In this document: piece by piece, positions 8,752 to 34,942 of the stretch
How the letters are laid out: each line of letters begins with the position of its first letter
Position numbering within the stretch: position 1 is the first letter of the stretch
NCBI GenBank assembly: GCA_028288165.1
Contig: JAQBOG010000009.1
Span: 1 to 64,000 of the forward strand
Origin: Sphingobacteriales bacterium
GTDB lineage: Bacteria; Bacteroidota; Bacteroidia; Sphingobacteriales; Sphingobacteriaceae
Length of the DNA stretch: 64,000 nt
Reading direction: 5' to 3'
Position numbers and translations under genes: made by a program
Notes under the pieces: model-generated
Databases searched by the model: none
Told to the model about the DNA's origin: nothing
Seen by the model: only the letters and a program-made list of their open reading frames with translations

Positions 8752-9331
8752 TAACAAAGACTGGTTTCCTGAATTTATATCAAGGAATTCTTTCGTAACA
8801 TTAGGTTAGAGCCGTTTCCGAGAAAGGTTCTCAAATGTTTAGAAAATAATGTTTCTGCATTCATCGGTTGCATCAGTCCCGCCAATCATTACAAATCCTC
8901 GTCTGGCATCCCTCATTCCATCCCACACTCCGGGTTTTTCATTTTTGTCGGGTTTAACTTACTGAGGCTTGTCCTTGAAAGCTCTGTTAAAAACTGATGA
9001 ACTGAGTTAATTAGTCTCAATACCATTTTCCTCTATGTTCCGACTCTGGACGAACCTCATTTTGAGTTTATTTTGTTAACAAAAATTCGGGCTTTAAATA
9101 CAAAATCAGGACTTACAAAACATTTTATAGAATGCGTTTATGAAACTTGCTAGGTTCTGCGTTAGGGATTGAAGAGAAAATCCTTTTTGCATCCTTCGCA
9201 AAAAGATTGGAACGAAAAGCCCGCTCGAACGCCCAAATCCTCGCTCTTAAAAAAGTTTAAATCGAATTTATTCGTAATAAAAAATGGAAGAAATTTATTG
9301 AAAAATACTAATATTTTTAGCATTTTTGTTT
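8752..9331. other. Long intergenic region, non-coding apart from repeat copy A
   Basis: 580 bases between the T9SS protein and the radical SAM gene. I found no convincing gene on either strand: open frames are short and do not resemble any protein known to me. The right part (9159-9234) holds a copy of the dispersed structured repeat described below. No clear rho-independent terminator follows the upstream gene. Confidence 0.6.
9159..9234 (+). repeat. Dispersed structured repeat, copy A
   Basis: Begins GCGTTAGGGATTGAAG and ends GAACGAAAAGCCCG...GAACGCCC. The ends pair (GCGTT/AACGC). The centre is a strong hairpin CTTTTTGC / GCAAAAAG around a 7-nt loop. The conserved blocks AGGGATTG and AACGAAAAGCCCG are shared with copies at 29226-29318 (minus) and 34860-34942 (plus), while the stem sequences differ between copies. 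Confidence 0.75.
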
Positions 9332-10402
9332 ATGTCACATCAAGAAAACGCTGAATATTTTAGGGGTCGAGGCGCCCAAATAAATACTCACAACAAGTTT
9401 TTTAGAAATCAATATACCGCTGAACACATAGAGGGGATAGATGAACCGTTGCTAGAAAATTCATCTACACAGCTTTTTGAAGAACATCCTAAAAAGATTG
9501 TAAGTATATCTAATAGTCCTGACTTATCTTTTGTACAATCGATAAATCCCTATCAAGGGTGTGAGCATGGTTGTTTGTATTGCTATGCTCGAAACGCCCA
9601 TGAATATTGGGGTTTTAGTGCTGGTTTGGATTTCGAAAATAAAATAATTGTTAAAAGGAATGCCGCACAGCTTTTAGAGAAGTTTTTCAATAAAAAAGGT
9701 TATGTTCCCGCAACAATTATGCTTTCTGGGAATACCGATTGTTATCAGCCTATTGAAAGGAAACTTAAAATTACACGATCGCTTTTAGAAGTGTTTTTAA
9801 AATATAAACACCCAGTTAGTATCATCAGTAAAAACAACTTGATTTTAAGAGACCTCGACTTAATTCAAAAATTAAATGATTTGAATTTAGTGCACGTAGC
9901 CGTTACATTAAATTCTTTAAATGAGGATTTGCGTCAAAAATTAGAGCCTAGAACCGTGACAGCAAAAGGCAGATTGAATCTCATTTCAAAGCTAACTGAA
10001 AAAAATATTCCGGTGAGGCTTATGCTTGCCCCAATAATTCCGGGATTAAACAGCGACGAAATTCCAAATGTTATTAAAGCGGCGGCGGATGCTGGTGCTC
10101 ATGCTGCATCGTTTACCATGGTGAGATTAAATGGCTCCATAGCAGAAATTTTTACTGATTGGATTTATAAGGCATACCCTGACAGAGCGGACAAAGTTTT
10201 AAATATGATTGCAGAATGCCACGACGGAAAATTGAACGATAGTAGATGGGGAACACGGATGAGGGGCGATGGCGTTTTGGCAGAAAGTATTCATAATTTA
10301 TTTAAAATTTCTGTTAATCGGTTTATGCCAGGGCGCAATTTAAAAGAGTTGAGCTTTGAACATTTTACTCCATCAAATGGGAAACAACTTGATTTATTTT
10401 AA
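9332..10402 (+). CDS. PA0069-type radical SAM protein (SplB-like)
   Basis: Radical S-adenosylmethionine enzyme of the PA0069/Rv2578c group, distantly related to spore photoproduct lyase. The [4Fe-4S] ligands are C77-x3-C81-x2-C84 in the segment CEHGCLYCYAR. SAM-binding elements follow (MLSGNTDCYQPIE; VAVTLNSLNEDLRQKLEPRT). The C-terminal part GTRMRGDGVLAESIHNLF is also typical of the group. I place the start at the ATG at 9332 (MSHQENAEYF); a TTG two codons upstream is open but less likely. The substrate is unknown. About 356 residues, a normal length. It stands alone, preceded by the structured repeat. Confidence 0.85.
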   Translation: MSHQENAEYFRGRGAQINTHNKFFRNQYTAEHIEGIDEPLLENSSTQLFEEHPKKIVSISNSPDLSFVQSINPYQGCEHGCLYCYARNAHEYWGFSAGLDFENKIIVKRNAAQLLEKFFNKKGYVPATIMLSGNTDCYQPIERKLKITRSLLEVFLKYKHPVSIISKNNLILRDLDLIQKLNDLNLVHVAVTLNSLNEDLRQKLEPRTVTAKGRLNLISKLTEKNIPVRLMLAPIIPGLNSDEIPNVIKAAADAGAHAASFTMVRLNGSIAEIFTDWIYKAYPDRADKVLNMIAECHDGKLNDSRWGTRMRGDGVLAESIHNLFKISVNRFMPGRNLKELSFEHFTPSNGKQLDLF

Positions 10403-10480
10403 AGAATTATGCTTGTACGATATAAATATTGTACCTTTAATACAATAAACCGTTTTAGTATTTAGTCCAAAATCTGCTAA

Positions 10481-11557
10481 ATGAGCAATCAAATCAGTTC
10501 TGTAATCATCTCTACAGGAAGTTACCTCCCAAAAAACATTATAAAAAACGATGAATTTCTCGAATTTCGCTTCTTCGAAAAAACAGGCGAATTCATTAAT
10601 AGAGCCAATTCAGAAATCATTTCAAAGTTTCAAGATATCACCGAAATAGAAGAACGTCTGTATGCCGATGGTGATCATTTGGCATCTGATCTTGGTTATT
10701 TTGCGGCTCAAGATGCCTTAGAAAGTAACAATATTGATCCCGAAACATTGGATTATATTATTGTTGCACACAATTTCGGCGACATCCCGCTAGGAACAAC
10801 AAGGGCAAATGTTTTACCCACACTTGCATCTCGTATTAAACATAAATTAGGTATTGTAAACCCAGATTGTGTTGCCTATGACTTACCTTTCGGTTGCCCA
10901 GGATGGCTCCAAGGTATGATACAGGCTGATTATTTCATCCGCTCCGGTGATGCCAAGCGCATCATGGTAATTGGCACTGAAACGCTATCCAGGGTAACCG
11001 ATCCGCATGACCGTGACAGTATGATTTTTGCCGATGGTGCCGCTGCTACCATACTCGAGGGGGCTATCGGTACTGAAGCTGGCATATTATCCCACAAAAC
11101 TCAGACGCATACTTTTAAAGAGGCTAATTACTTATATACAGAAAAAACCAGTAACCCAGATTTCGACAGTGAAGAACTTTACATTAAAATGGATGGTCGA
11201 AAGATTTACGAATATGCGTTGATCAATGTCCCTTTGGTAATTAAAACTGCTATAGAAAAGGCTGGCGTTGATTTAAAAGACGTTAAAAAGGTTTTAGTGC
11301 ACCAAGCTAATGGTAAAATGGATGAGGCTATTTTAAAACGCTTATTTAAGCTTTATAAAGTTACAGATATACCTGAAAATATTATGCCGATGACCATTGC
11401 CAAATTGGGTAATAGCTCAGTTGCAACTATTCCTACCTTACTTGACTTGATTATGAAAGGCAACATGGAGGGACATCAAATAAATAAAGGAGATATTGTG
11501 GTAATTGCGTCAGTAGGGGCAGGTATGAATATCAATGCGATGGTTTACCAGTTTTAA
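10481..11557 (+). CDS. 3-oxoacyl-ACP synthase III family protein
   Basis: Thiolase-fold ketosynthase of the FabH/KAS III family, which condenses an acyl-CoA starter with malonyl-ACP. The Cys-His-Asn catalytic triad is visible: C139 in DLPFGCPGWLQG, H274 in VHQANGKMDEA and N311 in LGNSSVATIPTLLDL. At 358 residues it is about 40 longer than housekeeping FabH (about 317) and has a divergent N-terminus (a segment around EFLEFRFFEKTGEFINRANS), so it may be a specialised paralogue rather than the main fatty-acid initiator. No acyl-carrier or other lipid genes are adjacent. It converges on the TPR gene, with a hairpin between them. Confidence 0.85.
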   Translation: MSNQISSVIISTGSYLPKNIIKNDEFLEFRFFEKTGEFINRANSEIISKFQDITEIEERLYADGDHLASDLGYFAAQDALESNNIDPETLDYIIVAHNFGDIPLGTTRANVLPTLASRIKHKLGIVNPDCVAYDLPFGCPGWLQGMIQADYFIRSGDAKRIMVIGTETLSRVTDPHDRDSMIFADGAAATILEGAIGTEAGILSHKTQTHTFKEANYLYTEKTSNPDFDSEELYIKMDGRKIYEYALINVPLVIKTAIEKAGVDLKDVKKVLVHQANGKMDEAILKRLFKLYKVTDIPENIMPMTIAKLGNSSVATIPTLLDLIMKGNMEGHQINKGDIVVIASVGAGMNINAMVYQF

Positions 11558-11573
11558 GCATAAATTAACCTTC

Positions 11574-11605
11574 GATAGCCCATGCATTTTAATCTATGGG
11601 CTATC
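11574..11605. terminator. Hairpin between convergent genes
   Basis: Perfect 10-bp inverted repeat GATAGCCCAT (11574-11583) / ATGGGCTATC (11596-11605) with a 12-nt loop, lying between the ends of the FabH-like gene and the convergent TPR gene. No strong T-run follows on either strand, so termination by this element alone would be weak; it may also protect the 3' ends of both messages. Confidence 0.55.
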
Positions 11606-11618
11606 AAATATTATAGAA

Positions 11619-13097
11619 TCACTTCAATCTCTTTAAACCTTCTTTGGCTTTATTTTCGATACTGCTTTCATAATCGTGGTCTTCCATGTTAATGGCGGTA
11701 TTGTAATAGTTTTTAGCGTTATTAAGATCTTTTCTTCTTTCGTAGATCATGCCAATTCTTAAGGCTGCATTTGACGCAAAGTAATATTGTTCTTTACTCC
11801 CCAACCTAATCGCATACTGATAGAACTTTATGGCCGCATCTTCATGACTTTTCGCATCATAAATACGTCCCAATCGGTAGCAATACTCTATTTTGTCTCT
11901 TATTATTTTAAAATCGTCGATTTTTTTATCTGAAATTTCTTTCAATGCCAAATCGTAGTATCCTCCATCAAACAATAACCTTGCTTTTAATAACTCCTTA
12001 TCAGGAATGGCATAACCGGCTTCTTTAAGTGCCTGCTTATCTTTATCATGGTAAGTGTAGCCTCTAATTTTGACTTGTTGAATATTATCGAGGTATCCTG
12101 AAGTATTCCCCTTTAATAGGCTTAAAAAAGCTAGACTCAAATAAGTATCCTTTTCTAAATTAATACCATTGTAGTTTTTTAGATAATAATTAAATGGAAT
12201 TGCTGCATCCTGATTAAGAGAACGCATTTTAGCCATCCCAAGTAAGTAATCCAGATACGGATAAGGTTGATACTGTGCTCCTCTGGGTCTTTTATTAAGC
12301 GCTGATATCGCATCCTCGTTATGTGACAGCTTCATGCCTGCATAGCTGCGGATATAAGTTCTCAACAAGCTGGATGAATCAATTTTATTCGTGTTTTCTA
12401 AGATAGATCTGTATGCATCCGAATCATTAACTATATCAAGCTTCACAAAAGATAAAAGAAAAACAACTTCATCGTAATAGAACTGATAATTTGAGTTAGG
12501 TAAACTTTTTACTAAGCTTTCTAACATTCTTATTCCTGTTTGAGTGTTACCACGAATTCCAAATGCAGATATTGTTTTCTTTAGTCCCTCTGGTAACGCT
12601 CCCAGTAAGGCATTGATCATTCCTAGATTTTTTTGGTTTAGAATAAATGCAGGATACTTCTTATCATTCTCCTGCAGCATTTTATAAGCTCTGTTAATTT
12701 CTAAACCTGAAGTAAATTGCTCCTGAAATCTGACCCTGGTGATTGCCCATTGTAAGTTAATTTCTGACAATGCAAAAAGATAATACGGAGAATTTTTATC
12801 TTCTCGCTCTATCCGATTCATTCTAAAAGCTTTGTTGTTTTTTAACCGCTCAAAATCACTACGACTTTCGGAGGTTAAAATTGTAAAAAAATCAACATAG
12901 TTATCCAAAAGGTATGGAATGGAGTTGTTGGGATTTATCTTTTTTTCATTTGCAATCAACACCTTTGCGGTACTCAGTTTTAAGCACAAAATGTTTTGAT
13001 ATGCCTTTATGCAATTCGCATTAAAATCAAAATTCGCCTTGACAGAACTGCTAATAAGAAGCAGCCCAATAACAAAATAACAACGGATTAATTTCAT
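11619..13097 (-). CDS. Secreted TPR-repeat protein
   Basis: A 492-residue protein with an N-terminal signal peptide (MKLIRCYFVIGLLLISSSVKA) and no lipobox cysteine, so probably periplasmic. The C-terminal third is rich in tetratricopeptide-like helical pairs, for example around YYFASNAALRIGMIYERRKDLNNAKNYYNTAI (shown in parts: A-L-R-I-G-M-I-Y and A-K-N-Y-Y-N-T-A). The N-terminal part looks like the divergent helical-repeat region seen in Bacteroidota TPR proteins. No enzymatic motif is visible; a scaffold role is the most that can be inferred. It follows the zinc-ribbon gene on the same strand, but a strong terminator lies between them, so it probably has its own promoter. Confidence 0.7.
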   Translation of the reverse strand: MKLIRCYFVIGLLLISSSVKANFDFNANCIKAYQNILCLKLSTAKVLIANEKKINPNNSIPYLLDNYVDFFTILTSESRSDFERLKNNKAFRMNRIEREDKNSPYYLFALSEINLQWAITRVRFQEQFTSGLEINRAYKMLQENDKKYPAFILNQKNLGMINALLGALPEGLKKTISAFGIRGNTQTGIRMLESLVKSLPNSNYQFYYDEVVFLLSFVKLDIVNDSDAYRSILENTNKIDSSSLLRTYIRSYAGMKLSHNEDAISALNKRPRGAQYQPYPYLDYLLGMAKMRSLNQDAAIPFNYYLKNYNGINLEKDTYLSLAFLSLLKGNTSGYLDNIQQVKIRGYTYHDKDKQALKEAGYAIPDKELLKARLLFDGGYYDLALKEISDKKIDDFKIIRDKIEYCYRLGRIYDAKSHEDAAIKFYQYAIRLGSKEQYYFASNAALRIGMIYERRKDLNNAKNYYNTAINMEDHDYESSIENKAKEGLKRLK

Positions 13098-13118
13098 GTA
13101 TCGTAATAAATCTTTTAA

Positions 13119-13151
13119 ATAAAAAAAGCGACCCTATGCGGATCGCTTTAA
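13119..13151 (-). terminator. Rho-independent terminator of the Nif3/zinc-ribbon operon
   Basis: Read on the minus strand, the stem TAAAGCGATCC / GGTCGCTTT closes a short loop and is followed by a run of seven T residues. It lies 20 bp past the stop of the zinc-ribbon gene and 22 bp before the start of the TPR gene, separating the two transcripts. Confidence 0.8.
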
Positions 13152-13170
13152 TATCTTAAGAAAATTTTAA

Positions 13171-13923
13171 CTATTCGGCAACAGCTGGTTCATGCTCTAA
13201 AGCAAATCCTTCGTCAACTAATATTCTTCCGCAATGCTCGCAAACAATGATTTTTTTGCGCTGGCGAATGTCTAATTGTCTTTGTGGAGGAATTTGATTA
13301 AAACATCCTGCACAAGAATCACGTTGAATGGTAACTACAGCTAAACCATTTTTAGCATTTCCGCGTAATCTTTTATAAGCGAATAATAAACGCTCATCAA
13401 TACCTTGTTCTGCCTCTTCAACTTTTTCTAAAACGGCAGCTTCTTCTTTTTCAGTTTCAGAAGTGATTGTATCTAATTCGCTTTTCTTTATTTCCAGATC
13501 TTTTTTACGTTCTTCAAGATCTGCTAATGCTTTTTGATAAACTTCCGTTTTATTGGCGATTTCAAAACCATGCTCTTTTATTTTCTTTTCAGAAACAAGA
13601 ACTTCTAAGCCTTGTATTTCAATTTCTTTCGAAATTGCATCGTATTCACGGTTATTTTTAACTTCAGTAAGCTGAGTCTCATACTTGCGGGTAGCCGTTT
13701 GAGCATCTTTAATCATATTCTTGCGGGTAACCACAGAATCTTCAAGCTCATCAAGTTCGCTCTTTATTTTTTGAATGCGTGTTTCTAAACCAGCAACCTC
13801 ATCTTCCAGATCCGAAACTTCCATTGGAAGCTCACCACGAACTTGGCGGATTCTATCAATTTTAGTATGAATAGTTTGAAGTTGGTATAACGCCTTTAAT
13901 TTCTGTTCTACAGTTTGTTCCAT
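13171..13923 (-). CDS. Coiled-coil protein with C4-type zinc ribbon (CT398-like)
   Basis: A 250-residue protein with a long N-terminal coiled coil (about 1-190, heptads rich in Glu, Lys, Leu) and a C-terminal zinc ribbon with the cysteine pairs CAGC and CEHC (DSCAGCFNQIPPQ ... IIVCEHCGRILVDE). It belongs to the family of Chlamydia CT398 and Helicobacter HP0958. HP0958 binds the sigma-54/flagellar machinery, but Bacteroidota homologues have no established role. Its start codon overlaps the stop of the upstream nif3-like gene by one base (TAATG), which indicates translational coupling. This pairing is widely conserved in the phylum. Confidence 0.85.
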   Translation of the reverse strand: MEQTVEQKLKALYQLQTIHTKIDRIRQVRGELPMEVSDLEDEVAGLETRIQKIKSELDELEDSVVTRKNMIKDAQTATRKYETQLTEVKNNREYDAISKEIEIQGLEVLVSEKKIKEHGFEIANKTEVYQKALADLEERKKDLEIKKSELDTITSETEKEEAAVLEKVEEAEQGIDERLLFAYKRLRGNAKNGLAVVTIQRDSCAGCFNQIPPQRQLDIRQRKKIIVCEHCGRILVDEGFALEHEPAVAE

Positions 13924-15020
13924 TAAATCAAATAATTTATGGGGTTTGTACTTTGTTGTGCTAAATGGAGTGCAAAGTTAGGAAATTTTTTGTTAATAAG
14001 TTCTAACAATAATTGTTGGGTAAATTGCTCACTTTCAAAATGTCCGACATCGGCAATCACGATTTTTTTATCTGCATCAAAAAACTCATGGTATTTATAA
14101 TCAGCTGTTATAAAGACGTCAGCTCCGGCCCTAATTGCATGTTGTAATAAAAAGCCACCTGATCCTCCGCATACTGCAACTCTGTTAACTTTCTTATTTC
14201 TTAATGCAGTATATCGAATCACTTTCGCATTTAGCATCGTTTTAACATTGTTTAAGAAGTCTAATTCATCAATTTCGCTTTCTAAGTTACCAATCATACC
14301 GGCCCCTACTTGACCATGAGTATTTGATATCGGATATAAATCATACGCAACTTCTTCATATGGATGGCTTTCATGTAAAGCAACTAAAATCTGCCGTTCC
14401 ATTTCTACTGAATAGATTGTTTCTATGCGGACTTCTTCTTCATAATGCTTTTGGCCCTTATCACCTACAAATGCGTTCGTTTCTTCTCCGGCCTTGAAAC
14501 TTCCGGTTCCACTCACATTAAAACTACATTCTGAATAATTGCCAATATTTCCAGCACCTGCATTAAACAAAGAATTTCGAACAGAATCAGCATGTGCAAC
14601 CGGGCAGAATGTTACCAGCTTTTTTAAAATATTCCCCTTTGGAGATAAAATAGACACATTCTTAATCCCTAAAACTTCGCATATCTTACCATTTACTCCA
14701 TTCAGCACATGATCTAAATTTGTGTGAATGGCATAAATTGCGATGTCGTTCTTTATGGCCTTTATAACCACTCGTTCCACATACGTGCTACCATTAAACT
14801 TTTTAATGCCCTTAAAAACAATCGGGTGATGAGAAATAATTAAGTCGCAATCATTTTTAATGGCCTCATCCACAATTTCTTCAGTGCAGTCTAAAGAAAT
14901 TAGCGCTTTTTGTACTTCCTTTTTGGGATCTCCAACTATAAGGCCGGAGTTATCATAATCTTCCTGATAAGGTAACGGAGCAATACTTTCAAGATAAGAT
15001 GTAATGTGGGAAAGGAGCAT
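13923..15020 (-). CDS. Nif3-like dinuclear metal centre hexameric protein
   Basis: Member of the NIF3/YbgI/YqfO (DUF34) family, hexameric rings with two metal ions per subunit. Metal-site motifs are seen at DLIISHHPIVFKG and IYAIHTNLDH near the N-terminus and around ADVGHFESEQF near the C-terminus. At 365 residues it is longer than E. coli YbgI (about 247). The extra ~100 residues in the middle (from about 130, VTFCPVAHADSVRNSLFNAG to ALHESHPYEEVAYD) are the PII/CutA-like insertion found in YqfO-type members. The biochemical function is not settled; GTP cyclohydrolase I type 2 is a frequent but poorly supported label. Coupled to the zinc-ribbon gene downstream. Confidence 0.88.
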   Translation of the reverse strand: MLLSHITSYLESIAPLPYQEDYDNSGLIVGDPKKEVQKALISLDCTEEIVDEAIKNDCDLIISHHPIVFKGIKKFNGSTYVERVVIKAIKNDIAIYAIHTNLDHVLNGVNGKICEVLGIKNVSILSPKGNILKKLVTFCPVAHADSVRNSLFNAGAGNIGNYSECSFNVSGTGSFKAGEETNAFVGDKGQKHYEEEVRIETIYSVEMERQILVALHESHPYEEVAYDLYPISNTHGQVGAGMIGNLESEIDELDFLNNVKTMLNAKVIRYTALRNKKVNRVAVCGGSGGFLLQHAIRAGADVFITADYKYHEFFDADKKIVIADVGHFESEQFTQQLLLELINKKFPNFALHLAQQSTNPINYLI

Positions 15021-15124
15021 AAGATTAGTAGCAGGTATTTAGTAGCAAGTATCCAAATTTTCTAGCATATCCATGCAGATATCTCAACAAAAGTACATCA
15101 ACTTTTGATCTCTAATAACTAAAC
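15021..15124. repeat. Imperfect AGTAnCAnGTATn direct repeats
   Basis: Just upstream of the nif3-like gene there are two near-copies, TAGTAGCAGGTATT and TAGTAGCAAGTATC, in tandem. A similar short-period stretch occurs upstream of cdsA at 22765-22835. This looks like slippage-type low-complexity DNA rather than a regulatory site. Confidence 0.5.
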
Positions 15125-15505
15125 TTAAATAGTTGGTTTTTGCCCACCATTATTCATTATGCTTACCATCTGAGCGCACTCATAAGCCGTTGTTCGATTA
15201 TATTCGGATGCCAGAGAGCGATGATTAATAATATCCACAATGGTGCCTATAAAACATAAACCGCACGTTAGTAAATAGAGAATTCCCATTCCTATCTGGC
15301 CAATAACAAATCGTTGAACACCTGCAACAACTACGAATCCTAAAAGTGTAAATAAGAGAATATCTTGGGCAGTTCTTCGCTTACCAGAGTAAAACATAAT
15401 GAAATTTTGAGCCTGCCTTCGATCCATGCCATTCATTATTTGTTCCAGATAAACATATTCTTCAGGAGTTACTCCCTTTAAAGTCATTAATAGGTCTTGA
15501 TGCAT
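15125..15505 (-). CDS. TM2-domain membrane protein
   Basis: A 126-residue protein with an N-terminal soluble segment and a C-terminal TM2-type pair of membrane helices (FTLLGFVVVAGVQRFVIGQIG, shown in part, and GILYLLTCGLCFIGTIVDII), separated by the polar turn typical of TM2 domains. Such proteins are common in Bacteroidota; the function is unknown. It is the last gene of a three-gene minus-strand cluster (DUF4199, DUF2752, TM2) with 16 bp to the gene before it. Confidence 0.78.
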   Translation of the reverse strand: MHQDLLMTLKGVTPEEYVYLEQIMNGMDRRQAQNFIMFYSGKRRTAQDILLFTLLGFVVVAGVQRFVIGQIGMGILYLLTCGLCFIGTIVDIINHRSLASEYNRTTAYECAQMVSIMNNGGQKPTI

Positions 15506-15521
15506 CGATTTGGTTTTTTGG

Positions 15522-15800
15522 TTAAGCTAATTTAGTCGGATTTTTACTTATTAACTCAAAGATTCGGTAGAGAAGAATGAAAAGTGCCGGAAAACCAAAC
15601 CAATGTTGGTGGAAGGAGCTTATAAATTCTCCATGAAAAATATGACTAATTGACCTTCCCAATCCGCAGCCAGGGCACCAGCTTATTCCAAGATTAAAAA
15701 ATGGGCATAAACTGCAGTGATGGCTATCAAATCGTGAAAAAGCTAAAAAAGAAATGGCTGCGATCCAACAAAATAATTCAAAATTTAAAACTCTTTTCAA
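15522..15800 (-). CDS. DUF2752 membrane protein
   Basis: A 92-residue protein with two membrane helices and the DUF2752 signature, a cysteine- and glycine-rich segment CPFFNLGISWCPGCGLGRS followed by H-x2-H/G-E. The conserved Cys residues suggest metal or redox chemistry, but no function is established. It sits between the TM2 gene (16 bp away) and the DUF4199 gene (1 bp away), so the three are almost certainly one transcript. Confidence 0.8.
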   Translation of the reverse strand: MKRVLNFELFCWIAAISFLAFSRFDSHHCSLCPFFNLGISWCPGCGLGRSISHIFHGEFISSFHQHWFGFPALFILLYRIFELISKNPTKLA

Positions 15801-15801
15801 G

Positions 15802-16215
15802 TCAAAGATTTTTTTGCTTATTCATCAGGGCCAAAGATATAGATAGATTAAAGAGTGTTCCAATAATTAAGGCTCCACCAATCCTGCCCATATAATCTGT
15901 ATTAAAAGCGTTTGAAGAATATTGAACATAAACAGCCGCGAATAAAAAGGTAATCAATGCGCCCACTATCATTATTTTAAATCCTTCCATCACGCCTTCA
16001 AAAAACTCCATCTTATCACTTCCCTGGCTATCTCTAAAGCTTTTTATACCTAAATACAATCCTGTAAAGGGTATAATTATCGATGCGTATTCAAGCAAAT
16101 GAGGATCATCCCCCCCGGGAGATTCCTTTTCATATACACCTAGATAGTGCATCATTAAAATCCAGAAACCGCTAACTACACCAATTAAAACTCCATACTT
16201 TAATGCGTTATTCAT
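15802..16215 (-). CDS. DUF4199 membrane protein
   Basis: A 137-residue protein predicted to have four membrane helices (about 6-26, 45-60, 78-100 and 112-132) with few charged residues, matching the DUF4199 family common in Bacteroidota. The N-terminal ALKYGVLIGVVSGFWIL and the second helix ASIIIPFTGLYLGIKSFRD are typical of that family. Function unknown. First gene of the DUF4199-DUF2752-TM2 cluster; divergent from mfd across 266 bp that hold no other gene. Confidence 0.75.
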   Translation of the reverse strand: MNNALKYGVLIGVVSGFWILMMHYLGVYEKESPGGDDPHLLEYASIIIPFTGLYLGIKSFRDSQGSDKMEFFEGVMEGFKIMIVGALITFLFAAVYVQYSSNAFNTDYMGRIGGALIIGTLFNLSISLALMNKQKNL

Positions 16216-16456
16216 TAGAATTTTGTTTAAAGATGAAAAATTACGTTGTTAGCTCTAGCTTACTATCTTTTAGGGTCTATTTCAATCTGTATGAAATCGA
16301 TCTGAAAATTCTCATAACATTTCGCAAGAGAAACACGCGTTAGTAGTATAAATTTACTCCTTTCATTGTTAAAGTACAACCATTTGGCTCAGAATGTTTA
16401 ATTAATTATTCATTTGTTAACTCTTCAATTAGCTTAACATTTAAACTCAAGTACTG

Positions 16457-16464
16457 TATATTTG
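16457..16464 (+). promoter_or_regulatory. Candidate -7 promoter box for mfd
   Basis: TATATTTG matches the Bacteroidota -7 consensus TAnnTTTG and lies 18 bp before the GTG start of mfd, giving a very short leader. No good -33 TTTG was found at the expected spacing, so support is partial. Confidence 0.4.
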
Positions 16465-16481
16465 CAGCGAAATCTGCTTTT

Positions 16482-25513: not shown

Positions 25514-25528
25514 GTAAACTAACCTTTA

Positions 25529-26215: not shown

Positions 26216-26289
26216 TTTACTTTTTTTGAATATTGTATTTCAAAAAGTATTCCTAATAGCGATATTACGCCAACCTTCACTTCTCGCAT

Positions 26290-27432: not shown

Positions 27433-27798
27433 AAAATTACGTGTTTTGGTTCTGTTTATTTCTACGGCTTGCTTCAAAAAAGCTACAATGATCTCTTCGT
27501 TTAAATCGTCAATAGTTTGGAACAATAACTTTCTAATCTGTGACGTATCGGTGTTAAATATCCCATATTCATCTTGCATCGATGCCCCTTCAATGAATCC
27601 TAAAACTACCTTATTTGACTTTTTCTCTTTATTTATATAACAAAGCAACCCCTTCCATGAATAACAAGGTATTCGCCATTTGATATTTTCTTCAATCTCC
27701 GGAACATGATGAAAAACCATATCTCTCAATACCTCCATCACTAATATTGAATCTTGGTCAAACTCATAAATGTATCTGTCAACTGCTGGACTTCGCAT
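27412..27798 (-). CDS. DUF1801 (YdhG-like) protein
   Basis: A 128-residue single-domain protein of the DUF1801/YdhG group: SPAVDRYIYEFDQ at the start, HHVPEIEENIKWRIPCYSWK in the middle and a Lys/Arg-rich end (TKTRNFLKIRKR). Related frataxin-like-fold proteins have no clear function in most bacteria. The end overlaps the convergent FAD oxidoreductase by 21 bp; the start is 36 bp from that of the divergent rmuC gene. Confidence 0.75.
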   Translation of the reverse strand: MRSPAVDRYIYEFDQDSILVMEVLRDMVFHHVPEIEENIKWRIPCYSWKGLLCYINKEKKSNKVVLGFIEGASMQDEYGIFNTDTSQIRKLLFQTIDDLNEEIIVAFLKQAVEINRTKTRNFLKIRKR

Positions 27799-27811
27799 AA
27801 ATTAATTTTAG

Positions 27812-27819
27812 TAAATTTG
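27812..27819 (+). promoter_or_regulatory. Candidate -7 promoter box for rmuC
   Basis: TAAATTTG fits TAnnTTTG and lies 15 bp before the ATG at 27835, in the short divergent gap. No clear -33 element at standard spacing. Confidence 0.35.
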
Positions 27820-27834
27820 ATAAAATTTTTAGTA

Positions 27835-29208
27835 ATGGAATATACAATAATAGTAATATTAGCAATTATATTGGTCGGAATTATCGCCATATTAATCAAG
27901 AAGCCTCATCCTAGTAACTTATTAGAAGTTGATCAATTGAGGTTAGAAAACCAATCTCTGAAAATCAATTTGGCTAAATTAGAGGAAAGAGCTGAAAATT
28001 ACCTGCAGGAAAAAGAAAAAAACTCACAGCTATTCAAAGAAGAAAAAGAATTCTTAGTCAAAGAATTAATAGAGGAACGTGAAAAAGTTAACACAGTTAC
28101 CAGATCATTAGAAAGTTCGAAAGCTTGGATGCAAGCTCAAAAAGAAAAAATCACGGAGCAAGCATTGGAAATGGAAAAGAATCAGCAGAAGTTCAATGCG
28201 GATTTTGAATTGATCGCAACTAAAATTTTAGACGAAAAAACCAAAAAGTTTACCGATCAAAATCAAGTAAACTTAACCACATTACTCACTCCTCTAAAAG
28301 AAAATATTAAATCATTTGAGGAGAAAGTAGAGAAGGTTTATAAAACAGAATCTGATGAGCGGAACAACTTAAAAGGAGTTATCAGCCAACTCATGGATTT
28401 AAACAAGTTGATGAGTACCGAAACGCAAAACTTAACCAAAGCGCTTAAAGGCGATAATAAAAAACAAGGTAATTGGGGCGAGATGATCCTGGAGCGGGTT
28501 TTAGAACGCTCCGGTTTAGTAAAAGATCAGGAATATCGAATTCAAAATAGCTTTCAATCAACGGATGGTAGCCGTTTTCAGCCCGATGTTATCATTGATT
28601 TACCGGATGATAAACACCTAATAATAGATGCAAAGGTTTCACTACTCGCATATGAGCGCTTAGTTAATTGCGAAACGGATGATGATCACGATGTTTTTAC
28701 CAAGCAGCACGTGCTATCTGTCCGGAACCATGTTAACGGACTTGCAGCTAAAAATTATAGCGATTTGTATAAAATCAATTCTCCCGATTTTGTGCTGCTT
28801 TTTATTCCCATCGAATCCTGTTTAAGCATTGCGGTACAAAAAGATGCCGAGCTATTTAATTTTGCCTGGGAAAAAAGAGTGGTTATTGTTAGCCCATCAA
28901 CCTTATTGGCTACTTTAAGAACCATTGCCAGCATCTGGAAACAGGAGCGTCAAAACAAAAATGTGCTTGAAATTGCCCGTTTAAGTGGCGAAATGTACGA
29001 TAAGTTTGTGGGCTTCATTACTGATATGGAAAGCATTGGTAAAAACATTAAGCAAAGCCATGACGCCTATGAAAAAGCCTTAAATAAACTAACAGAAGGA
29101 CGTGGAAACCTGACAACCACTGCAGAAAAAGTAAAGAAGTTGGGTGCAAAAGCCAGTAAACAAATTGATACTAAATTTTTAAGTGAGGTAGAAGGTTTGT
29201 CTTTATAA
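27835..29208 (+). CDS. rmuC: DNA recombination protein RmuC
   Basis: RmuC family protein of 457 residues. An N-terminal membrane helix (MEYTIIVILAIILVGIIAI) is followed by a coiled coil (about 30-130) and a PD-(D/E)XK-like nuclease core with the conserved GNWGEMILERVLERSGL and the metal-site strand FQPDVIIDLPDDKHLIIDAKV. In E. coli RmuC limits inversions at short inverted repeats. An open frame extends 27 codons upstream to 27754, but that part overlaps the divergent DUF1801 gene and does not resemble RmuC; the ATG at 27835 gives the usual membrane-anchor start. Confidence 0.92.
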   Translation: MEYTIIVILAIILVGIIAILIKKPHPSNLLEVDQLRLENQSLKINLAKLEERAENYLQEKEKNSQLFKEEKEFLVKELIEEREKVNTVTRSLESSKAWMQAQKEKITEQALEMEKNQQKFNADFELIATKILDEKTKKFTDQNQVNLTTLLTPLKENIKSFEEKVEKVYKTESDERNNLKGVISQLMDLNKLMSTETQNLTKALKGDNKKQGNWGEMILERVLERSGLVKDQEYRIQNSFQSTDGSRFQPDVIIDLPDDKHLIIDAKVSLLAYERLVNCETDDDHDVFTKQHVLSVRNHVNGLAAKNYSDLYKINSPDFVLLFIPIESCLSIAVQKDAELFNFAWEKRVVIVSPSTLLATLRTIASIWKQERQNKNVLEIARLSGEMYDKFVGFITDMESIGKNIKQSHDAYEKALNKLTEGRGNLTTTAEKVKKLGAKASKQIDTKFLSEVEGLSL

Positions 29209-29225
29209 TAAGTTGAAGTTGTTTA

Positions 29226-29318
29226 GGGCGTGTCCCAAGATGGGTCGGGCTTTTCGTTACAAGTCCTCGCCACAATGGAGAATTGTGTCTGTGGGCTTTT
29301 CACTGCAATCCCTCACGC
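29226..29318 (-). repeat. Dispersed structured repeat, copy B
   Basis: On the minus strand it begins GCGTGAGGGATTGCAG and ends AACGAAAAGCCCGACC...GACACGCCC. The ends pair (GCGTG/CACGC). The central hairpin is CACAAT / ATTGTG with a 5-nt loop and the small distal hairpin is CCC-atctt-GGG. It lies between rmuC and the beta-propeller gene. Confidence 0.8.
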
Positions 29319-29425
29319 AAAAGCATGCTACATAAAAAACATCCCATACTTAAAAACGTTTATAATAAAGTCAATTAATTTATCTTTACTGATCAAACTC
29401 ACTATTCAAAACTTTCAAACCTCTT

Positions 29426-30259
29426 ATGAAAAATAACATTTTTAAAGTTTCTACGCTTGGTATTCTAATAACAGGATCCAGATTATTTGCCCAAGAACAT
29501 ACTATTACAAAAATTTGGGAAACACAAAATAATTTAAAAGTTCCTGAAAGTGTACTTTATGAGCCTAAGTCAAAAGTGCTTTATTTTTCTAATATTGACG
29601 GTACTCCTGACGGAAAAGACGGAAAAGGATCAATCGGAAAATTAAGTTTAGACGGAAAAACAGCCACTGAAATAGTGACTGATTTAAATGCCCCAAAAGG
29701 TTTAGGTATTTATAAAAATGTATTATACACTGCAGACATCGACCAAGTAGTTGCTATCGATTTGAACACTAATAAAGTGATTAACCGGTACCCGGTAGAA
29801 GGAGCAGCTTTTCTGAATGATATTACTATAAATTTAAAGGGTAAAGTATTCGTTTCTGATTCCGGTACAGGTAAAATTCATGTTATCGAAGACGGTAAAG
29901 TATCCACCTATTTAGAAGAACTAAAAGAAGTGAATGGCTTGTTGTCTGTAAAAGATGACTTGTATATACTTGCGAGCGGATCTTTATGGAAAGCTGATAA
30001 AAGCAAAAAATTAACGCAAATTGCCCATGGTTTAGAAAGCAGTACCGATGGTATCGAACAAACTAAAAACGGTGATTTTATTGTTTCCAGCTGGAATGGT
30101 ATGGTATATTATGTAAAAGCAGACGGATCTAAAGAAACACTTTTAAACACCACGGCAGAACAATCTAAAACTGCTGACATTGGTTTCGATGTAAAAAATA
30201 ACATTATTTATGTGCCTACTTTTTTCAAGAATACAGTGGCTGCGTATCAGTTGAAATGA
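29426..30259 (+). CDS. Secreted SMP-30/gluconolactonase-like beta-propeller protein
   Basis: A 277-residue protein with a signal peptide (about 1-22, ending RLFAQ) and a repeating four-strand pattern of a six-bladed propeller similar to SMP-30/gluconolactonase. Characteristic segments are PESVLYEPKSKVLYFSNIDG, LNAPKGLGIYKNVLYTADID and LNDITINLKGKVFVSDSGTG, where Asn/Asp residues would form the central metal site. Family members hydrolyse sugar lactones or serve as structural propellers; lactonase activity here is not assured. The gene stands alone and ends at a strong terminator. Confidence 0.78.
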   Translation: MKNNIFKVSTLGILITGSRLFAQEHTITKIWETQNNLKVPESVLYEPKSKVLYFSNIDGTPDGKDGKGSIGKLSLDGKTATEIVTDLNAPKGLGIYKNVLYTADIDQVVAIDLNTNKVINRYPVEGAAFLNDITINLKGKVFVSDSGTGKIHVIEDGKVSTYLEELKEVNGLLSVKDDLYILASGSLWKADKSKKLTQIAHGLESSTDGIEQTKNGDFIVSSWNGMVYYVKADGSKETLLNTTAEQSKTADIGFDVKNNIIYVPTFFKNTVAAYQLK

Positions 30260-30277
30260 TATTTTATTAAGAACAGG

Positions 30278-30311
30278 AAAGCCTCCAAAATTAATTTGGA
30301 GGCTTTTTTAT
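30278..30311 (+). terminator. Rho-independent terminator
   Basis: Stem AAAGCCTCCAAA / TTTGGAGGCTTT with a 4-6 nt loop, followed by a T-run, starting 19 bp after the stop of the beta-propeller gene. Confidence 0.9.
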
Positions 30312-30450
30312 TTAGAGGCGGTATGTTTAACTCCTGTTTCTGCAGTTTCTTTCATATACTCACTGTGTTCTTTTGATTTTTAAACGAGTGCTTTTCAATA
30401 TCATGCTCGGCCAGTAACTGGTAAATATTATTAATTGATCAGTTTTTTAA
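30310..30450 (-). pseudogene. Possible decayed C-terminal gene fragment
   Basis: Read on the minus strand, two adjacent frames give a coherent-looking short peptide: NNIYQLLAEHDIEKHSF-KNQK, then after a +1/-1 shift EYMKETAETGVKHTASK and a stop. A stop codon lies a few codons upstream of the first part and no start is evident. It looks like the 3' remnant of a lost gene, but could be chance. I do not recognise the family. Confidence 0.25.
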
Positions 30451-30557
30451 AGTAATTAAGCAAACTGCTCACTCATCTGCTATGCTAAAAAATAAATAAA
30501 CTGAATCTGTTTTTGTTTAAGCAAACACTGTTAATTTGTATATAAAACAGATAAGAT

Positions 30558-31799
30558 ATGCAGTTAACTGATTTAACCGAACTGGAAATTCAAAAATTAC
30601 GTGCAGAAACAAAAGGAACGAAAGAAGTCATTCATTTTAATAATGCCGGTTCCTCACTACCTCCTGATGTAGTAGTAGATTCAGTAGTAGCCTATTTACA
30701 GGAAGAAGCTGTGAAAGGCGGATATGAAACGGAAGCTAAATATCAAAGTGTTTTAAACAACACCTATACGCTAATTGCCAAACTTATTAATGCCGAGCCA
30801 GACGAAATTGCTATAGTAGAGAATGCTAGTACAGCTTGGTGGATAGCCTTTAATGGCATAGATTTTAAACCAGGGGATGAAATTATTGCATCAGAATATG
30901 AATATGTAACGAACTATATAGGTTTACTTACAGCTCAAAATCGCTATGGAGTTATTGTTAAAGTTATTTATAACGATGAACAGGGCGATTACCCAATTGA
31001 TAAGCTAGAAAAGGCAATTACCACACAAACAAAATTGATTTTAGCCACACATATACCCAGCACTGCCGCCGGTATCTTACCTGTTGCTGAAATCGGTAAA
31101 ATTGCCCGAAAAAATAACATTCTCTATTTAGTGGATGCTTGCCAGTCAGTTGGACAAATTCCCGTTGATGTGAAGGAAATTGATTGCGATATGCTAGCAG
31201 TTACTGGCCGGAAGTATTTGCGTGCTCCACGTGGAACAGGATTTCTATTTGTAAAAAAGAGCATTCAAAACCAACTAAATACTAGTTTAATGGATGGGTT
31301 CAGTGCTAGCTCTGTAAATATTAATGAGTATAAACTTCGAGACGATGCCAGAAGATTTGAGCTTTACGAAAAGAGCAGAGCCCTAACTATCGGTTTGGGT
31401 AAAGCAGTAGAATATGCGTTAGCTGTCGGAATAGATAGAATTAGCCAACGGATTATTTATTTGGCGGATTTAATGCGGAACCAATTAAGAAATGTAAACG
31501 GTTTAACTGTTCATGATGTGGGAGAAAAACTGTGTGGAATTATTACATTTTCAGTTAACAGCCTTGATTGTATTGTTGTTAAAAATAAACTAGCCATAAG
31601 AAACATCAATATTTCTGTAGGGCAAGCTAAATCAACGATGTATTATATGGAGAAAAATAAGCTAACAACAATTTTAAGGGCATCTGTTCACTATTACAAT
31701 ACGGAAGTAGAAATAACTTTATTCTGTGATGCTATGAAACAAATATTGACCGAAGTAGAATCGGATCGAACAGATAAGTCAGCAGTTATTATTTTATAA
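30558..31799 (+). CDS. Class V aminotransferase-fold PLP enzyme
   Basis: A 413-residue pyridoxal-phosphate enzyme of the class V aminotransferase/cysteine desulfurase fold. Family landmarks: HFNNAGSSLPPDVVVDSVV near the start, ENASTAWWIAFNGIDFKPGD, the aspartate-containing strand LYLVDACQSVGQIPVDV, and the PLP-binding Lys K219 in AVTGRKYLRAPRGTGFLF. It lacks the clear Cys loop of IscS/SufS, so a desulfurase or a small-molecule lyase/transaminase are both possible. It is followed with one intervening base by a MocR-type regulator pseudogene, which suggests the two were once a regulated unit. Confidence 0.82.
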   Translation: MQLTDLTELEIQKLRAETKGTKEVIHFNNAGSSLPPDVVVDSVVAYLQEEAVKGGYETEAKYQSVLNNTYTLIAKLINAEPDEIAIVENASTAWWIAFNGIDFKPGDEIIASEYEYVTNYIGLLTAQNRYGVIVKVIYNDEQGDYPIDKLEKAITTQTKLILATHIPSTAAGILPVAEIGKIARKNNILYLVDACQSVGQIPVDVKEIDCDMLAVTGRKYLRAPRGTGFLFVKKSIQNQLNTSLMDGFSASSVNINEYKLRDDARRFELYEKSRALTIGLGKAVEYALAVGIDRISQRIIYLADLMRNQLRNVNGLTVHDVGEKLCGIITFSVNSLDCIVVKNKLAIRNINISVGQAKSTMYYMEKNKLTTILRASVHYYNTEVEITLFCDAMKQILTEVESDRTDKSAVIIL

Positions 31800-31800
31800 G

Positions 31801-33235
31801 ATGCATGACATTGACGAATTTTTATATCTACGGATTCCAAAACTTTTGAAAATCAAATTCTAAAGGAAGTTATCCGCTTAGGCGATAAACTGCCTTCATT
31901 ACGAAGTATTTGTAAGCAATATGATGTAAGCCAAACTACGGCTATGCAAGCATATTACTATTTGGAAAGCAAATTCTTAATAGAATCAAAGCCTAAGTCT
32001 GGATATTATGTGAGCTACTCTTCTAAACACTTCGCATCCATGCCGGAAATTAGCAAACCTAGTGATCAAGAGGGTGATCCAGAAGATATGGAGAATATAA
32101 TTGATAAAGTTTATCGCCATATCACGAGTAGTAAACCAACCATGTTATCGTTAAGTGTGCCTGCACCAGAACTATTGCCTATTGCTAAATTGAATAAAGC
32201 AATGGTAAATGCGTTACGAAGCTTACCTGCCAGTGGTACAGCTTATGAACACATACAAGGTAATATTAAACTAAGAAGACAAGTGGCTCGCTTATCTCAT
32301 CCCATGGAAGTTTCCTTCACAGAGGATGATTTGGTAATTACCGATGGCTGTATGAACGGTATCTCCTACGCCATGATGGCTTTACCAAAGCAGGTGATAC
32401 CATCATTGTAGAGAGCCCTATTTACTTCGGAATTTTACAATTAGCCAAAAGTTTAAATATTAAAGTTTTAGAATTACCTACTCATCCTAAAACTGGCGTT
32501 GAGCTGGAAGCCGTTAAAAAAGCGCTGGAAGAAAAGAAAATTACTTTATGTCTGCTGGTATCCAATTTTAGTAACCCATTGGGCAGCTGTATGCCAGATG
32601 AGCACAAAAAGGAGATGGTAAATCTAATTCAGAAGCATAACATACCACTTATTGAAGATGATATTTATGGCGATGTTTATTTTGGATTAAATCGTCCAAA
32701 AACCTGTAAAACGTTTGATGAAAGTGGATTGGTACTTTGGTGCAATTCTATATCAAAAACACTAGCTCCTGGATATAGAGTAGGTTGGATAGCTCCTGGA
32801 AAATTTAAAGATCAGTTTTTAAAATTGAAAAAATATCATTCCATTTCTTCACCCACACTAACTCAAGAGGTAATTGGCAGCTTTTTAGAAACCGGGCGAT
32901 ATCAACATCACTTACGAAAGCTAAGAAGTACCCTTCAAGCAAATTCTATTAATTTTTTGAATGCTATTTATGAGAATTTCCCTGAAGGTGTTAAAGTAAA
33001 CCGGCCGGAAGGCGGCTTTGTTTTATGGATAGAGCTTGATAAACAACTCAGTACCGTTGACTTGTATGAAAGAGCAATAAAAAGAAATATAAGCATTGCT
33101 ACTGGTTCTATGTTTACCCTGCAAAAACAGTTTTCTAATTGTATGCGTTTAAGTTATGGAATGAAATGGGATACTACAGTTGCTCAATCTCTTAAAACTT
33201 TAGGGATGATTAGTAAGGAGTTGATGGGAAGATGA
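31801..33235 (+). pseudogene. MocR/GntR-type PLP-dependent regulator, two frameshifts
   Basis: Coding sequence for a winged-helix plus aminotransferase-like protein broken twice. Frame 1 runs from ATG 31801 (MHDIDEFLYLRI) and would stop at 31863. Losing one base near 31836 explains the change to the frame that reads KTFENQILKEV, then GDKLPSLRSICKQYDVSQTT, the GntR-type helix-turn-helix. A second one-base loss near 32384 moves the frame again: the first frame stops at 32411, while the homologous reading TKAGDTIIVESPIYFGILQL continues to 33235. The PLP Lys region SISKTLAPGYRVGWI is intact. Either a true pseudogene or two sequencing errors; the ATG follows the upstream stop by one base. Confidence 0.82.
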
Positions 33236-33280
33236 TATTTATTTATCTTGTAGTTTTCACTATATTATTTAGGAGTATTT

Positions 33281-33310
33281 GTAAGATTCAAAAGTTTGAT
33301 TGAATCTTAC
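33281..33310. terminator. Inverted repeat between convergent genes
   Basis: Perfect 10-bp inverted repeat GTAAGATTCA / TGAATCTTAC with a 10-nt loop, between the MocR pseudogene and the convergent lipoprotein gene. No T-run follows on either side, so it is at best a weak terminator. Confidence 0.4.
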
Positions 33311-33324
33311 AAATCACAAGAATA

Positions 33325-33660
33325 CTACTCTATAATTTTACTCGATACAGTCGCACTCTTCTCTTGTACTTGCGAGTTTAGAATTTCGCCTCGCCAAAAT
33401 ATTTTACAAGACACTATTTTTGTGGGATCATTACTTGTGGCGCTTACTTGAGTAATAAAACCTGCGTATCCATTGACAATGAATTCTTTTTTTCCTGATT
33501 GGTTCACTAAAACAATGAAGTTATTACTTTCCTTGTCAGCATAACTTACCGAATAATTTTCTCCTTCGGTTTGATAGGTTATCACATAGTCCTTTTTATC
33601 TTTTTTGCATGACGATACAACTAATAGGCAGACTGCAAATAATACTGTTTTTATTCTCAT
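33325..33660 (-). CDS. Small lipoprotein, unknown function
   Basis: A 111-residue protein with a lipoprotein signal peptide: MRIKTVLFAVCLLVVSSCKK with the lipidated Cys at about residue 18 and Lys/Asp-rich residues after it. The rest is a small beta-rich domain (strands around YVITYQTEGENYSVSY and KEFIVNGYAGFITQV). Not recognised beyond this; such proteins are numerous in Pedobacter-type genomes. It stands alone. Confidence 0.65.
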   Translation of the reverse strand: MRIKTVLFAVCLLVVSSCKKDKKDYVITYQTEGENYSVSYADKESNNFIVLVNQSGKKEFIVNGYAGFITQVSATSNDPTKIVSCKIFWRGEILNSQVQEKSATVSSKIIE

Positions 33661-33774
33661 AGATAATATATTTTTTCTTAAAAATAATAATACTCTCTAA
33701 ATAATAAAAAATTATTAACACTTTTTAACTCAATCCCTAATAAATTGAATTGTAACTATTTTTATAAAAAGTAG

Positions 33775-34821
33775 TTACACACTCTTCTTAAAAGCATTCC
33801 ACCCCTGGGCTTTTAATTCATGTACCTTTTGAGATTTAGATATTAAGTGACAACCAGCAGCAGGTTCGGTGATATGGCCAATGATAGAAATATCGGGATT
33901 ATTCTTAATTATTTCAAAGTCATTTTGGCTAACGGTGAATAATAACTCATAATCTTCGCCGCCATTTAAGGCACAAACGGTTGGATCTAAGCCAAAATCA
34001 CGAGCAGTGTCATAAGTCATTGGGTCGATAGGAATTTTATCTTCATAGAGACTGCAGCCCTTGTTAGATTGCTTGCAAAGGTGAAGTATTTCAGAAGCCA
34101 AGCCATCAGAAACATCAATCATGGATGTTGGTTTAATTTTCATTAATTCTAACGCTTCCACAATGTCTTTACGAGCTTCTGGTTTCAATTGGCGCTCAAC
34201 AATGTAATCTTTACCTTCTAAATCAGGTTGAATATTTGGGTTTTCTAAAAATATTCCTTTTTCTCTTTCTAATAATTGAAGACCGATATAAGCACCTCCT
34301 AAATCACCAGAAACACATAATAAATCACCTTCTTGAGCTCCGTTACGGTAACAAATTTTATCTTCTTCGGCAAAACCAATACTGGTTACACTTATTACTA
34401 ATCCTTGTTTTGAGGAGGATGTATCACCACCAACTAAATCAACTCCATATTTTTCACAAGCTATAGAAATCCCTTGGTATAATTCTTCTACTGCTTCTAA
34501 TGGAAATTTACTGGATATACCAATTGAAACAGTGATTTGAGTGGCTGTTCCATTCATTGCATAAATATCGCTCAAATTTACTTGAACGGCTTTATAACCA
34601 AGGTGTTTAAGCGGTGTATAGGCTAAATCGAAATGAATGCCTTCTAATAAAAGATCGGTTGAAATAAGTGTTTTTTTATTTTCAAAATTTAAAACAGCAG
34701 CATCGTCGCCAATGCCCTTTACAGAAGAGCTATTTTTAATTTCAAAGTGTTTGGTTAAATGCTCTATTAAACCAAATTCACCTAATTGTTCTATTTCTGT
34801 ACGACCTTTATTTTCAAACAT
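33775..34821 (-). CDS. thiL: Thiamine-phosphate kinase
   Basis: Phosphorylates thiamine monophosphate to the active cofactor thiamine diphosphate. The 348-residue PurM-like ATP-binding protein shows the family's acidic metal and nucleotide motifs: GIGDDAAVLNF, ISTDLLLEGIHFDL, GVDLVGGDTSSSKQG, the Gly-rich GDLGGAYIGLQLL, and MIDVSDGLASEILHL. The C-terminal NGGEDYELLFTV is also diagnostic. No thiamine riboswitch or other thi gene was seen next to it. The structured repeat copy C lies directly upstream of its start. Confidence 0.95.
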   Translation of the reverse strand: MFENKGRTEIEQLGEFGLIEHLTKHFEIKNSSSVKGIGDDAAVLNFENKKTLISTDLLLEGIHFDLAYTPLKHLGYKAVQVNLSDIYAMNGTATQITVSIGISSKFPLEAVEELYQGISIACEKYGVDLVGGDTSSSKQGLVISVTSIGFAEEDKICYRNGAQEGDLLCVSGDLGGAYIGLQLLEREKGIFLENPNIQPDLEGKDYIVERQLKPEARKDIVEALELMKIKPTSMIDVSDGLASEILHLCKQSNKGCSLYEDKIPIDPMTYDTARDFGLDPTVCALNGGEDYELLFTVSQNDFEIIKNNPDISIIGHITEPAAGCHLISKSQKVHELKAQGWNAFKKSV

Positions 34822-34859
34822 GAAGCTTATTTTATTTCTTTTTTGATGAGATGCTAGGT

Positions 34860-34942
34860 GCGTGAGGGATTGAAGTGGAAAGCCTACAGCCTGTTTAGGC
34901 GAGGACTTGAAACGAAAAGCCCGACCTTTTTAAGGCACGCCC
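34860..34942 (+). repeat. Dispersed structured repeat, copy C
   Basis: Begins GCGTGAGGGATTGAAG and ends AACGAAAAGCCCGACC...GGCACGCCC. Terminal pairing GCGTG/CACGC; central hairpin GCCTACA / TGTttAGGC (7 bp with a 2-nt bulge); distal small hairpin CCTT-ttt-AAGG. It lies between nadA and thiL, which are both on the minus strand. Confidence 0.8.

Follow-up and report, generated by a model that had tools for sequence, protein, structure and literature searches.

Flavo-1 was put forward in 2010 as a candidate RNA motif of Bacteroidetes, with no function assigned to it (PMC2864571), and is filed in Rfam as RF01705 under the class "Gene; sRNA" (small RNA). A review mentions it where it deals with the most abundant small RNAs of bacteria (PMC9029176). 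The other closest described systems are mobile DNA, namely the repetitive extragenic palindromes (REPs) and their paired form (REPINs) associated with REP-associated tyrosine transposases (RAYTs), and the miniature inverted-repeat transposable elements (MITEs) of the IS982 family. Known REPs carry a GTAG/CGTC tag. Genes of the Bacteroidetes TnpA_REP subclass 2.6 are reported to have unusual flanking structures (PMC6006769). Here we analyse Flavo-1 in a stretch of 64,000 nucleotides (the window), positions 1-64,000 of contig JAQBOG010000009.1 in assembly GCA_028288165.1 of a Sphingobacteriales bacterium (3.69 Mb, 42 contigs, 68.6% complete), where an initial annotation had noted a three-copy structured repeat. 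We judge it probable, by a modest degree, that Flavo-1 is a short, non-autonomous, dispersed mobile DNA hairpin, which in this genome is partly a passenger of IS982-type MITEs.

Flavo-1 copies in the window and in related genomes

The window was scanned against Rfam 15, with the curated RF01705 cut-off of 42 bits deciding membership, and with a model (R1) built from 31 oriented copies (alignment A2). Copies A, B and C are all in the R1 training set and their R1 scores are not independent.

9159..9234, plus strand: Flavo-1 copy A, of the type with the CCTTTTTG hairpin; RF01705 49.4 bits, over the cut-off of 42; R1 94.1 bits
29226..29318, minus strand: Flavo-1 copy B, of the type with GAGGACTTG and a distal CCC/GGG hairpin; RF01705 35.4 bits (E 8.5e-4), under the cut-off of 42; R1 68 bits
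34860..34942, plus strand: Flavo-1 copy C, of the same type as B, with a distal CCTT/AAGG hairpin; RF01705 38.3 bits (E 1.4e-4), under the cut-off of 42; R1 58.7 bits
9077..9274, plus strand: decayed MITE of the IS982 type that encloses copy A, with approximate ends, recognised from flank profiles and a right-end remnant, AATCGAATTTATTCG

Positions and strands of the three copies are as initially annotated, and both shared blocks are exact in all of them. Block GCGTKAGGGATTG has three perfect matches in the window and five places at up to 2 mismatches, where 1.15 are expected and 0 of 100 shuffles reach five; block AACGAAAAGCCCG likewise has three perfect matches, and five places against 1.43 expected, a number that 3 of 100 shuffles reach. 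The folding energy of single copies is unremarkable (z -0.33, -0.52 and -1.10 for A, B and C) and uninformative alone. All three copies lie between long open reading frames (ORFs) of the window, which agrees with the annotation of the copies as intergenic; a 130-codon ORF that overlaps copy C and runs antisense into the NadA gene is one that we take as spurious.

The genome contains about 208 copies, of which these three fall in the window. A degenerate pattern for the left half, allowed up to 2 mismatches, has 208 places (107 and 101 on the two strands), and the reversed control has none. With the Rfam model the best 150 of 951 candidates were scored and gave 149 matches, of which 148 pass 42 bits; low scorers such as B and C are absent from this list because only these best candidates were scored. 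Across a family survey of 61 genomes Flavo-1 was matched in 36 and exceeded the cut-off in 26, with counts from 0 to at least 64 (0, 4, 10 and at least 64 in the four genomes of the same genus), in agreement with the statement in the initial annotation that similar sequences are frequent in Sphingobacteriaceae genomes. Its further remark, that there is no known description of a function, is right, but the family had already been described (Rfam RF01705; PMC2864571). Matches in plasmid and phage collections were short or distant (5 and 1 records, respectively), and none of these records is Bacteroidota by name.

Fold, covariation and the recognised strand

R1 gave 79 matches in the source-genome sequences, at 78 sites (one site matched twice), and 61 matches in 60 stretches of nine other genomes, picked from high-scoring places of the family survey. 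The fold starts with an outer stem, GCGTT/AACGC, followed by GGG/CCC, a T-A and a W-W pair and an internal loop with GNA on both strands. A 2-bp stem then leads to another loop resembling the first, beyond which a stem that carries one extra C ends in a freely variable tip. This fold is not new, because the paired layout with two internal loops matches Rfam's own structure line for RF01705.

Covariation was measured in two alignments, both fitted to R1. For the 61 copies of the nine other genomes it reached 0.513, against at most 0.109 in slid versions and above every shuffle; for the source-genome alignment it was 0.237, against at most 0.052 and above every shuffled and slid version. The covariance model and genome-wide search thus returned neither a repeat confined to three copies nor an absence of covariation, and the annotated picture of a dispersed structured element with conserved joints and covarying arms was borne out. 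The compensatory change noted in the outer stem is also real, the fifth pair being T-A in 66, G-C in 10, C-G in 2 and broken in 1 of the 79 source-genome rows (78 sites), and compensation in the differing yet self-paired central hairpins is seen in both alignments.

Elsewhere in the fold, the W-W pair, which is not part of the R1 structure, is paired in all 61 copies from other genomes (T-A 34, A-T 20, G-C 5, C-G 2), and GGG/CCC is swapped there for A-T and C-G pairs, e.g. ACG/CGT. The 2-bp stem shows compensated variation and some wobble. Among the same 61 copies the outer-loop GNA has G in 61 and A in 61 on the left strand, and G in 56 and A in 61 on the right strand; outside the source genome the inner loop is looser. 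The GNA residues may form sheared G.A pairs. The small distal hairpins annotated in B and C are a recurrent variant. In the source genome 66 copies could be parsed (12 could not) and 10 of these have such a hairpin; in other genomes 30 could be parsed (31 could not) and 12 have one. The remaining parsed copies have a short linker.

Several copies carry other sequence within or beside the fold. One (L227, 2740-2855; L and G numbers denote loci and genomes) has about 16 additional bases in the outer internal loop. The tip in L025, L173, L177, L192 and L172 sometimes holds another common repeat, CCTGAGCG..GAAGG, as though it had been invaded or replaced by REP-like sequences. A second repeat, the hairpin GATGCTGG/GGTGCAGG..CCAGCAC, stands just downstream of several copies (L122 near 13370, L120 near 9570, L125 near 10560).

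Mismatches within the stems bear on which nucleic acid is recognised. If a single folded strand were recognised, G.T mismatches would be tolerated on that strand and A.C mismatches would not. Isolated mismatches were counted as G.T to A.C at 9:0 in the 2-bp stem, 19:2 in the variable hairpin and 30:6 in helices 2-4 minus the pair adjacent to the extra C, a pair that was dropped after the counts had been seen. It was set aside because 17 of the 29 A.C cells sit on it, two subtypes being judged to place the extra C differently (an alignment shift); the G-U preference of R1 may add slightly to the excess. A strict parse copy by copy handled only 33 of 139 copies and gave five G.T and one A.C. Read with caution, these counts suggest that the recognised form is single-stranded, either RNA or DNA, and it would then be one strand folded into a long imperfect hairpin.

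Rfam files Flavo-1 as a structured RNA (type "Gene; sRNA"), which would mean a large set of small RNA genes or of cis elements. Besides that filing, the RNA-like internal loops and the covariation would suit such an RNA, and RNA would give the one-strand wobble pairs too. There are nevertheless about 208 copies with freely changing tips, and the upstream sequence is not conserved by eye (35 of the 60 rows from other genomes anchored at up to 2 mismatches). We consider this explanation unlikely.

IS982-type MITE flanks and candidate enzymes

Many copies in the source genome share longer flanks that end in AACCTGAGTTCGATT and its complement. Both inverted repeats were found in 30 of the 78 sites (mismatch sum of at most 9 of 30), compared with 0 of 78 when the flanks were shuffled. 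The MITEs so delimited have 15-bp ends and a length of about 180-210 bp, and 8 of the 13 best have an exact 3-bp target duplication, where 0.83 are expected. Flank profiles were then trained on 16 copies; 99% of 300 random places scored below 9.3 (left) and 9.0 (right) bits, the highest reaching 12.8 and 15.9. Of 62 further copies, 23 are recognised by one or both of these profiles, which with the training copies makes 39 of 78, or about half of the examined sites, themselves a non-random sample of copies. The profiles also pick out 5 of 300 random places, and only 1 of the 16 copies in G050, a genome of another genus. Copy A exceeds the threshold on both sides (13.8 bits left, 11.2 right), and its right-end remnant differs at 6 of 15 positions. 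Both flanks are under the threshold in copy B (9.2, just under, and 4.1 bits) and in copy C (5.0 and 5.8 bits).

In public genomes, at least 118 stretches contain a 16-mer, TAACCTGAGTTCGATT. Most of the 80 titles listed for them are Bacteroidota; Balneolia account for some, and a few are metagenome-assembled genomes (MAGs) with other titles. These stretches include 35 distinct short elements with terminal inverted repeats (TIRs), 23 of which have a 3-bp duplication against 4.7 expected. In a Persicobacter plasmid (L370) the MITE ends, with 1 mismatch each, stand about 1.02 kb apart with aag flanking both sides, and the element between them encodes a 298-aa transposase (NCBIfam IS982 NF033520, E = 6.9e-80). 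As a side observation, the IS982-type MITEs at loci L251-L368 are spread over many Bacteroidota genera and share one set of ends, and their interiors are very diverse (89-434 bp); many of the ends lie near contig ends.

When 73 TIR loci were given to R1, four matched: Flavo-1 is inside a perfect-ended 229-bp MITE in L303 (a MAG named Sphingobacteriales), beside a single TIR in L293 and L267, and away from its TIR in L254. An autonomous element around Flavo-1 was sought in the source genome and rejected, as the facing pairs among 32 end places at up to 1 mismatch are about 0.2 kb apart and no PF13612 transposase was detected in this incomplete genome.

About half of the checked copies in this genome lie inside small mobile elements of a common transposon family, which makes Flavo-1 look more like mobile DNA than like an RNA gene. 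It could even be only a MITE passenger, of IS982-type elements here and of other vehicles elsewhere, that never moves alone; the flanks in 39 of 78 copies, the 3-bp duplications and the four-locus result, with L303, L293 and L267, would fit. However, the single G050 copy of 16 with a flank over the threshold compares with 5 of 300 random places, and the correctly anchored rows from other genomes share no flanks by eye, bar a possible trace in L190. We find such a strict passenger quite improbable. The annotated MITE reading is accordingly half right, since such flanks are common among the examined copies of the source genome and rare in G050.

A Bacteroidota RAYT (TnpA_REP subclass 2.6, PMC6006769) might have Flavo-1 as its cognate REP and cut and paste it as single-stranded DNA. 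This proposal is compatible with the mobile hairpin and would name the mover of its core; we regard it as possible, on the doubtful side. The single-strand wobble sign would fit. Of the 13 genomes that have 10 or more Flavo-1 matches, 11 contain weak matches to REP-type Y1 proteins (PF01797), versus 10 of 48 others (Fisher p=4.4e-5, uncorrected for kinship and with labels set by hand); among the 25 genomes without a Flavo-1 match, 1 contains them. A RAYT profile (A6), made from 12 RAYTs and run on 13 chosen genomes, matched in six. One of the two exceptions among the high-copy genomes, G044, has only broken RAYT relics; counting these, RAYT is found in 12 of the 13 high-copy genomes. By contrast, G032, which is 100% complete and has at least 45 Flavo-1 copies, has no RAYT by two profiles.

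The surroundings of the RAYT genes point the other way. The flanks of 18 RAYT-type genes, read out to 260 bp, hold one complete Flavo-1, which stands about 67 bp from a degenerate gene, and one 13-base left end; a third gene has Flavo-1 about 560 bp off. Many of the genes show palindromes of their own by eye, and those palindromes are not Flavo-1. Close Flavo-1 pairs are not enriched either, with 1 under 300 bp versus 2.65 expected in 23 source-genome stretches; outside this test single close pairs were seen in L001 and L162 (inverted) and in L168 (direct). The initial suggestion of a REPIN was thus not supported, nor was that of an element moved by a RAYT, yet RAYT presence correlates with copy number.

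Two RAYT loci deserve separate mention. In L056 (3924-4184) a Flavo-1 left end breaks off after 13 bases and is directly followed by a RAYT gene with its own palindrome, an arrangement that looks like an insertion into a Flavo-1 copy. L051 has an intact (8539-9150) and a degenerate (10442-10885) RAYT gene 1.3 kb apart, with a MITE-borne Flavo-1 67 bp upstream of the degenerate one.

For the mobile DNA hairpin we propose two routes. In the lineage of the source genome an IS982 transposase acting in trans would have multiplied MITEs with Flavo-1 as their passenger. In other genera the core may spread without IS982 ends, as the single-stranded hairpin substrate of a trans-acting enzyme, for which a Y1/HuH single-strand transposase is the likeliest candidate class.

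Placement, turnover and comparison with known systems

A simple ORF caller places 58 of 66 copies in the source genome in intergenic sequence and 5 at the ends of stretches; the other 3 fall in ORFs of 96-99 codons, which we take as spurious. Orientation is free: between co-directional neighbours 19 copies are sense and 21 antisense. G050 (n=16) has 4 sense and 7 antisense copies and one in a 103-codon ORF. In a transcript map of Flavobacterium psychrophilum, Flavo-1 matches are reported to be sense or antisense alike, many of them outside transcribed regions (PMC9723704). Random orientation and this map weigh against a conventional RNA gene or cis element, and the RNA element of the initial annotation is unlikely. 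Flavo-1 is better explained as a mobile DNA hairpin than as RNA.

Two further candidates were dismissed by eye. A terminator was rejected since neither strand has a T run after the outer stem. An integron attC site starts with RYYYAAC and ends with GTTRRRY; here the boxes stand in reverse order, and no integrase search was made. Apart from Flavo-1, the window has two adjacent ORFs on the minus strand (40235-42097 and 42164-44026), both of 620 codons, possibly a duplicated gene.

Several results weigh against Flavo-1 as a mobile single-stranded hairpin, one of them being its history at orthologous sites. Five G050 sites were compared with relatives of that genus, giving 42 genome-site comparisons, many anchored on one side only. 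R1 found Flavo-1 at the same place and in the same orientation in 8 of 42 (twice in G089, three times in G079 and once each in G087, G088 and G090). Two more comparisons gave weak matches (G090 and G037; E 0.03 and 0.06), one gave a match in reverse orientation (G086), and the other 31 gave none. At site 1, R1 detects a strongly diverged variant in G079 (40.2 bits); of the 31 comparisons with no match, four (G078, G060, G088 and G090) show such a variant there by eye and one (G037) a disrupted copy. At one site compared between G050 and G089 (flanks about 86% identical; pair L083/L084) the arms are kept and the inner hairpin is replaced. Such orthologous retention exceeds what is predicted for a purely selfish, fast-moving element, and retention at some sites is also a point in favour of RNA.

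The remaining objections concern strand, placement and enzyme. With the pair adjacent to the extra C kept, G.T to A.C is 31:23 in helices 2-4 and 34:29 in all helices, and in the raw alignment counts (35 vs 28; 34 vs 29) the strand bias is missing until that pair is removed. Convergent gaps hold 13 copies versus 7.0 expected by length, and divergent gaps 5 versus 10.6. No transposase for the Flavo-1 core was found, and no IS982 transposase (PF13612) was detected in the 68.6% complete source genome.

Site 4 of the G050 comparison has Flavo-1 in G050 and G090, lacks it in G079 and G078, and carries other repeats in G088. The orthologous-site results therefore indicate that gain, loss and long retention all occur. 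Exchange between copies would be a plausible explanation of the changing tips. Empty sites within the genus of the source genome could not serve, the closest relative being too far (75% identical in one stretch compared).

A wider proposal is more tentative. Flavo-1 may be a Bacteroidota-wide mobile single-stranded-DNA hairpin, not RNA, with an RNA-like two-loop recognition module, a putative trans-acting single-strand recombinase of its own and a tip renewed by exchange between copies, and able to ride IS982 MITEs; we hold this as a speculative possibility. Among titles in the literature on Bacteroidetes RAYT/REP, repeats, MITEs, IS982 and Rfam with mobile elements, judged mostly by title, none calls Flavo-1 mobile. 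Rfam has listed Flavo-1 since 2010 with no function attached; should it be mobile DNA, small-RNA counts and annotations need correcting. Its two-loop hairpin would give Bacteroidota Y1 proteins a well-defined test substrate, and the vehicle of IS982-type MITEs offers a concrete route for Flavo-1 multiplication in one lineage.

Compared with the known systems, the repeat is closest to Rfam RF01705, with which it shares sequence blocks, paired layout and occurrence in Bacteroidetes (PMC2864571). RF01705 is filed as a candidate small RNA gene, whereas here it behaves as a dispersed repeat with MITE flanks on half of the examined copies, and B and C are under its cut-off. It resembles REPs and REPINs with their RAYTs in its high copy number, intergenic position and imperfect hairpin and in the correlation with RAYT presence; it differs in its greater length, its two internal loops and its variable tip, in its close pairs, which are not enriched, and in that RAYT genes are rarely beside a copy. 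The MITEs of the source genome are like IS982-family MITEs such as MITECca01 of Cardinium (about 240 bp; PMC9769881) in having IS982-type ends and no transposase inside, and they differ by carrying Flavo-1. The family and its fold were already catalogued; what is new is that about half of the examined copies in the source genome, A included, have IS982-type MITE flanks.

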